DNA of 64,000 bases from Pseudanabaena sp. PCC 6802 (GTDB lineage Bacteria > Cyanobacteriota > Cyanobacteriia > Pseudanabaenales > Pseudanabaenaceae): positions 3,778,868 to 3,842,867 of the forward strand of contig NZ_KB235914.1 in NCBI RefSeq assembly GCF_000332175.1. The letters run 5' to 3'. Below, in pieces: positions 63,594 through 64,000 of the stretch (position 1 is the stretch's first letter; every line of letters starts with the position of its first letter). The notes beneath the pieces were generated by a model. The model made no database searches. It was not told the origin of the DNA and saw only the letters and a program-made list of their open reading frames with translations. The position numbers and the translations under genes are program-made.

Positions 63594-63684
63594 GAATGCT
63601 AGTGCGCTCCATTGCTTAGAGAGTGAAACTGGCTCGACGAACTTGGGGGGCGATCTGTAGTGTTGCCAACAAGCAAATGTATAG

Positions 63685-63757
63685 CCCCTTACCCAAGAAT
63701 CGAACTTGGTACGCCGTCCTTCGGAAAGACAGCTCTGCAAAATCCAGCAGGCAAGGG
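63685..63757 (-). tRNA. tRNA-Arg (CCG)
   Basis: Minus-strand cloverleaf of 73 nt. Acceptor stem CCCTTGC with GTAAGGG (one G-T pair), anticodon stem TGTCT with GGACG and loop TTCCGAA (anticodon CCG), T-stem CCAAG/CTTGG with canonical loop TTCGATT. The discriminator is G. The D-arm is irregular. CCA is not encoded. Last gene of the visible cluster, 4 nt after tRNA-Arg(ACG). Confidence 0.78.
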
Positions 63758-63761
63758 AGAA

Positions 63762-63831
63762 CCCCTCTGGGTGGAATCGAACCACCGCATCCGACGTTCG
63801 TAGCATCAGCGCTAGCTCCACTAGCAGAGGG
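63762..63831 (-). tRNA. tRNA-Arg (ACG), short D-arm
   Basis: A 70-nt cloverleaf. Acceptor CCCTCTG/CAGAGGG (7 of 7), T-stem GGTGG/CCACC with loop TTCGATT, anticodon loop CTACGAA (ACG). The region between acceptor and anticodon stems is only about 15-16 nt, so the D-loop is unusually short. 3 nt separate it from the Ile-like gene. Confidence 0.8.
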
Positions 63832-63834
63832 AAA

Positions 63835-63908
63835 TCCACCGAGGAGGTACTGCCCCTCCTGACAACACAGTTATCGGCTGTGCGCGTCGCTATTTCCGCC
63901 TTCGGTGG
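63835..63908 (-). tRNA. tRNA-Ile (GAT)-like, aberrant loops
   Basis: A 74-nt cloverleaf with perfect stems: acceptor CCACCGA/TCGGTGG, anticodon stem CACAG/CTGTG, T-stem GGAGG/CCTCC. The anticodon loop CCGATAA gives anticodon GAT but has C in place of the universal U33. The T-loop reads GGCAGTA rather than TTCGANT, and the D-loop lacks the conserved GG. The stems are intact, so it may be a specialised or degenerating tRNA. Confidence 0.62.
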
Positions 63909-63911
63909 GAA

Positions 63912-63995
63912 AGGAGAGTAGAGGAATCGAACCCCTAGAGCGTTACCCTACCCTAGTTTTCAAGACTAGTTGCCAACCATTTAGCGGTACTCTCC
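63912..63995 (-). tRNA. tRNA-Ser (TGA)
   Basis: A class II tRNA with a long variable arm. Acceptor GGAGAGT/ACTCTCC, anticodon stem CTAGT/ACTAG with loop CTTGAAA (TGA), T-stem AGGGG/CCTCT with canonical loop TTCGATT. The discriminator appears to be T rather than the usual G, and the D-stem is weak. First of the visible tRNA genes; more may lie beyond the window end. Confidence 0.78.
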
Positions 63996-64000
63996 ATTTG

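Follow-up and report, generated by a model that had tools for sequence, protein, structure and literature searches.

The window analyzed in this study is a stretch of 64,000 nucleotides from the genome of Pseudanabaena sp. PCC 6802, and its last 316 bases (63684..64000, minus strand) form the 3', promoter-distal end of a tRNA gene array. The array continues for 5459 bases past window position 64000, as far as L031:9459 (an L031 position is the window position minus 60000), resulting in a total length of 5.8 kb. ARAGORN predicted 32 tRNA genes at L031:3684-9459, all on the minus strand. The Rfam search of the array region gave 30 matches, 29 to RF00005 and one to the tRNA-Sec model, and 29 array genes exceeded the Rfam threshold with a top score of 74.6 bits. 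Weak Rfam matches to Plastid-ycf2, sX4, cyano_tmRNA and YrlA (L031:4286) look like chance matches or antisense tRNA matches. When an Ile-like gene and a second His-GTG-like gene are added to those of ARAGORN, the array amounts to about 34 tRNA genes, plus one Leu gene broken by an insertion sequence, and thus exceeds the 20 tandem one-strand genes expected of an L-array or trn operon. In a genome-wide tRNA family search (5.62 Mb, 6 contigs), in which 150 of 298 candidates were scored, at least 71 matches were obtained, and at least 28 tRNA family matches lie at C5:3842779-3848326, between the window end and a point 5.46 kb further on. The first-pass annotation had placed the window end at the border of a tightly packed array of redundant cyanobacterial tRNA genes that probably continues rightwards, and the additional tRNA genes beyond position 64000 bear this out.

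Read 5' to 3' (right to left), the array starts with Asp-GTC, followed by Glu-CTC, Cys, Met, Trp, Glu-TTC, Tyr, Ser-GCT, Phe, Asn, Gln-CTG, Gln-TTG, Leu-CAA, the Leu gene broken by an IS5-family element, and Leu-CAG. Pro, Leu-TAG, Leu-GAG, a second Pro, Lys-TTT, Met and Thr-TGT come next, and then an ORF of PHROG 1491, an undetermined tRNA, Gly-TCC, Gly-GCC, Val and the ORF of a protein hereafter called protein 1. The array ends with Arg-TCT, Ala, His, Lys-CTT, the second His-like gene, Ser-TGA, the Ile-like gene, Arg-ACG and Arg-CCG. Both Met genes encode ACCA. In the broken Leu gene an anticodon arm is found in each of the halves flanking the insertion sequence, TAG in the 5' half and TAA in the 3' half. 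This fact suggests that two Leu genes were fused through sequence loss.

The four genes at the window end, all on one strand, had been listed in the first-pass annotation as Ser-TGA, Ile-GAT-like, Arg-ACG and Arg-CCG, with spacers of about 3 nt and no encoded CCA. All four proved to be real, and the spacing and the missing CCA are right for these genes. The last (3') gene of the array, a divergent tRNA-Arg(CCG)-like gene found by ARAGORN at 63684..63757 (minus strand), shares 75% identity with an Arg(CCT) of other cyanobacteria over a length of 73 nt. The neighboring tRNA-Arg(ACG), likewise an ARAGORN gene (63761..63832, minus strand), shows 81% identity to the Arg-ACG of the Oscillatoria princeps array. 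Neither of these two Arg genes was scored by the Rfam tRNA models. tRNA-Ser(TGA) at 63912..63995 (minus strand) was found by both ARAGORN and Rfam, its best Rfam match being the tRNA-Sec model (43 bits, compared with 33 bits to RF00005), and it is 86-88% identical to the array Ser(TGA) of other cyanobacteria. Since the Arg pair is left unscored by Rfam and Ser-TGA fits the tRNA-Sec model best, the window-end genes are considered to be divergent.

The fourth gene, a non-canonical tRNA-Ile(GAU)-like gene at about 63835-63908 (minus strand), was missed by both ARAGORN and Rfam RF00005 and was recognized by eye, by alignments and by covariation. It has neither of the two marks of a canonical tRNA-Ile(GAU): the T-loop reads GGCAGTA in place of TTCNANY (GACAGTA once among the aligned copies), and the D-loop is without GG. 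The Pseudanabaena sp. PCC 6802 copy also has C33. The counterparts in Stenomitos and Kovacikia retain the canonical T-loop. Ten and then nineteen sequences, the Pseudanabaena sp. PCC 6802 copy included, were aligned. In the cloverleaf, 97.4% of the alignment cells pair, compared with 37-59% in slid controls. Changes on both sides were observed in 8 of 20 pairs, and there were 27 such cells versus 6.6 in shuffles (none of 500 shuffles reached 27), in an alignment that was built without structure and in which the anticodon arm of the Pseudanabaena sp. PCC 6802 copy is offset by one column. A pattern search of 386 sampled cyanobacterial genomes found 22 copies of the element in 20 genomes, while the reversed pattern gave no match in the same sample; the pattern was also absent from viral contigs. 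The copies sit in arrays. Ser-TGA immediately precedes most of them according to ARAGORN, and the remaining copies follow Ala, His or a gap that may hide a divergent Ser. Eight more genomes have the Ile-like array gene at a distance of 3.8 to 8.4 kb from trcR, a gene described below. Judged from its sequence, the Ile-like gene is a conserved tRNA that is invisible to the tools, and represents neither noise nor decay. The loss of both partners of the elbow contact between the D-loop and the T-loop suggests an altered use of this tRNA.

The array was then compared with the other tRNA genes of the genome. There are 42 solitary tRNAs outside the array, including Ser-TGA, Arg-ACG and Arg-CCG, so that the array is redundant with the solitary housekeeping set, and the possibility that the window-end genes are the only copies of these three isoacceptors falls away. 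This comparison covers the isoacceptors other than Ile-GAT and Ala-TGC, the rRNA spacer tRNAs, as no rRNA was found in the genome sequence searched. For 28 array genes, the genome has a matching solitary tRNA and other cyanobacterial arrays have a counterpart as well, and 26 of these are nearer to array tRNAs of other species (80% on average) than to their own solitary isoacceptor (65%). Taking the maximum over many sequences favors the 17 other loci in this comparison, a bias that is lessened, with some remaining, by the control in which the solitary tRNAs of Pseudanabaena sp. PCC 6802 reached only 69% against the same arrays. The gene order is also conserved. The series Asp, Glu(ctc), Cys, Met, Trp, Glu(ttc) ... 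Arg(tct), Ala, His, Ser(tga), followed by the Ile-like gene, is common to arrays of Stenomitos, the uncultured PMM_0008, Nodosilinea, Oscillatoria, Kovacikia and Nostoc plasmids. In both gene order and sequence lineage, the array belongs with the L-arrays or trn operons.

A promoter, TTGACAAATTTGTAATACATATACTACAGTATATTAC, was found near L031:9914, about 430 nt upstream of Asp. It combines a TTGACA box with the TrcR half-site ATACTACA, which has no mismatch. When the 800 nt upstream were shuffled as mononucleotides, a TTGACA-type box together with an intact half-site arose in 8 of 1000 shuffles. Of the 19 arrays tested, 15 have this arrangement in front of them, among them that of Pseudanabaena sp. 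PCC 6802. The half-site near the -10 region, TTGACAAATTTGTAATACATATACTACAGTAT, is a predicted site that matches at the level of the motif. The distance from the promoter to the first tRNA is longer than the approximately 110 nt of most Pseudanabaena arrays tested, and repeat sequence lies in between.

Upstream of the array promoter, genes of the alr0857 family (NCBIfam match, 1.4e-42), HNH and trcR occupy L031:10175-12408. The last of these, a gene for an RHH protein at L031:12046-12408, is divergent from the HNH and alr0857-family genes and lies 2.6 kb upstream of the array. The targets of TrcR repression in Anabaena are trn, asr0855-alr0857 and the TrcR gene itself, all0854, and the published operator is ATACTACACTTGTATTAC (PMC10272220). 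Between the divergent trcR and HNH sides we found ATACTACACTTGTAGTAT, which differs from the published operator at 2 of 18 positions. A search of the 5.62-Mb genome with the degenerate operator pattern gave no other exact match. The RHH protein is the sole TrcR relative in the genome; of 386 cyanobacterial genomes sampled, 103 encode a relative of it, in almost every case as a single copy. Most of the relatives fetched, including those of Nostocaceae, have the exact published operator together with divergent HNH and alr0857 genes. On the basis of the operator match, the exact operator of the relatives and the divergent HNH and alr0857 genes, the RHH protein was taken as the TrcR (All0854 family) of this organism.

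Within the array, the ORF of protein 1 (L031:4304-5119, about 271 aa) overlaps the next tRNA, Arg-TCT, with its 3' end. Protein 1 had no Pfam, PHROG or NCBIfam family, no PDB sequence match and no relative in viral contigs. An AlphaFold model of a relative (pLDDT 69.7, pTM 0.42) gave no significant fold match. The protein is encoded in the array both in Pseudanabaena sp. PCC 6802 and in other Pseudanabaena. In Nostocaceae its gene is located between encased tRNA-like genes and the gene of a vWA protein, in Y-RNA-like operons. From the basic N-terminus and these neighbors, an RNA-binding role may be guessed. The ORF of PHROG 1491 (annotated as tail fiber protein, 1.3e-48) encodes 209 aa at L031:5695-6324, between Thr-TGT and the next tRNA, and was not found in the other arrays examined. 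The array spacers carry MITE-like repeats and one IS5-family element; one spacer repeat of about 125 bp (G000:C5:3847930-3848056, L031:9063-9189) has at least 40 copies in the genome.

The poor tRNA scores of the two Arg genes and the Ile-like gene, and the Leu gene broken by IS5, indicate that part of the array may be decaying. It could be argued from the broken Leu, the two poorly scoring Arg genes and the MITE-like repeats and insertion sequence in the spacers that the array as a whole is a decaying remnant that no longer serves any function. This is very unlikely in view of the 29 genes above the Rfam threshold, the compensatory changes in the Ile-like gene far in excess of shuffles, and the intact promoter and operator motifs.

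The array is located on a 4.58-Mb contig, where it is flanked by phn genes and ordinary chromosomal genes that are syntenic in relatives, and it lies directly behind the trcR-HNH-alr0857 locus, which is a new detail. The layout of trcR / HNH, alr0857, array and protein 1 recurs in 11 Pseudanabaena genomes, with at most seven tRNAs in each, and in Oscillatoria princeps RMCB-10, there with Y-RNA-like genes after it. Another possible interpretation is that the array is a recently acquired mobile island, a cargo of a plasmid, ICE or phage inserted by chance, as with mycobacterial tRNA array units. Some related Nostoc arrays are indeed on plasmids beside partition genes or an integrase (with an HNH gene directly upstream), and the array contains the phage-family ORF (phrog_1491) and the IS5 element. 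The array itself, however, does not lie on a mobile element, its surroundings showed no gene for an integrase or for conjugation, its layout is shared by the 11 Pseudanabaena genomes and Oscillatoria princeps, and neither the Ile-like element nor protein 1 occurs on any viral contig. The island is thus an unlikely explanation, and the shared layout and the lack of such genes nearby give no support to a recent horizontal gain. The first-pass annotation had described such arrays as thought to be horizontally acquired. Arrays of other lineages may be mobile, since some Nostoc arrays are plasmid-borne. The array of Pseudanabaena sp. PCC 6802 is a resident chromosomal locus that shows no evident sign of having been acquired recently. 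The presence of a long array next to the gene of the repressor known for such arrays, in a layout shared with 11 other Pseudanabaena genomes and one Oscillatoria, speaks for a resident stress module and against a transient mobile element.

The closest known system is the trn operon (L-array) of Anabaena sp. PCC 7120, which has 26 tRNAs, lies on the delta plasmid and is silenced by TrcR and derepressed on translation stress, the known inducer being inhibition of the ribosome (PMC10272220). Both are long one-strand tRNA operons redundant with solitary tRNAs, and both have a TrcR-type promoter and an adjoining HNH endonuclease gene. The array of Pseudanabaena sp. PCC 6802 differs in being chromosomal, directly behind trcR-HNH-alr0857, and in having about 34 genes, an in-array protein gene and interruptions by an insertion sequence and a phage-like ORF. 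It resembles the trcR-linked mini-arrays of Pseudanabaena (L089-L095, L174-L180) in locus, promoter type and the in-array protein followed by Arg-TCT, while in the mini-arrays the protein is 160 aa long and the tRNA genes number no more than seven. The mycobacterial tRNA array units (PMC12803027) share the dense redundant set covering nearly all amino acids. They are on plasmids or phages, and the accessible part of that report mentions no TrcR linkage. Gene order, sequence and promoter identify the array as belonging to the known L-array family of cyanobacteria, in a form that is chromosomal and linked to trcR.

We consider it highly probable that the window end is the promoter-distal part of a long, TrcR-controlled L-array or trn operon of Pseudanabaenales that provides spare tRNAs for stress. 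Transcription would run leftward from the one TrcR-type promoter, and the operon encodes a nearly complete second tRNA set and one small protein. By orthology with Anabaena, TrcR would keep the array silent. When ribosomes are blocked, the level of TrcR would fall and a long precursor would be made, which would then be processed and CCA-tailed, so that the spare tRNAs could support protein synthesis. The silence, induction, processing and benefit of the array are all predicted from this orthology.

It is worth considering that the main role might instead be to replace tRNAs cut by anticodon nucleases carried by phages or toxin systems, with induction by antibiotics as a by-product. This idea, which overlaps with the stress-operon explanation, is possible but rather doubtful. 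The near-complete isoacceptor set and altered sequences agree with it, as do the presence of the RNA ligase RtcB in the Anabaena TrcR regulon (PMC10272220), the Ro60 (TROVE) gene and Y-RNA-like genes with a similar promoter motif in the same genome, and an antidefence role proposed for mycobacterial arrays (PMC12803027). The known inducer, however, is ribosome inhibition.

Several observations were made on the Y-RNA-like genes. The Ro60/TROVE gene of Pseudanabaena sp. PCC 6802 lies at G000:C1:199894-202300 (L099:1080-3024), with two tRNA-like RNAs before it. These Ro60-linked RNAs have long inserts and scores of 39.8 bits to RF00005 and 25.8 bits for a YrlA-like match. The promoter motif TGTAGTAT also precedes the Ro60/TROVE gene. 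A total of 172 distinct encased RNAs, which are tRNA-like, permuted tRNA-like or 23S-rRNA-fragment-like, were found in 66 loci (L079-L088, L097 and most of L101-L173; for example, L081:8250-10005 and L084:8650-10830). They have a conserved casing, CACTTCGTGCCCTAAC....AAGCTTACATAC ... AGCTTTTTCAACTTGCACGAAGTG, the outer stem of which forms 6.6 of 8 pairs, compared with 5.7 with shuffled partners. One permuted element matched YrlA at 33.8 bits. In their operons, the encased RNAs are accompanied by protein 1, a small ORF and a vWA protein, and TrcR-type promoters occur in some cases. In Nostocaceae loci such as L051, L104 and L106, the anticodon found at the same operon place varies, and many of the encased tRNA-like genes have CTA (Pyl in ARAGORN) or another triplet there. 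The encased RNAs are candidate cyanobacterial Y RNAs. The encased-tRNA pattern of Nostocaceae is absent from the Pseudanabaena sp. PCC 6802 genome.

The protein 1 family ties tRNA arrays to Y-RNA-like operons, and the present analysis exposes a conserved tRNA that both standard finders used, ARAGORN and Rfam, overlook. We tentatively suggest, as a conjecture with less than even chances, that the Ile-like gene is a specialized tRNA with a fixed place in TrcR-type arrays. Having lost the elbow contact, it may do something other than ordinary decoding, for instance as a decoy, as a stress signal or in decoding under stress only. Together with the in-array protein it might then be part of a TrcR-controlled RNA-stress module, which elsewhere would include Y-RNA-like genes.
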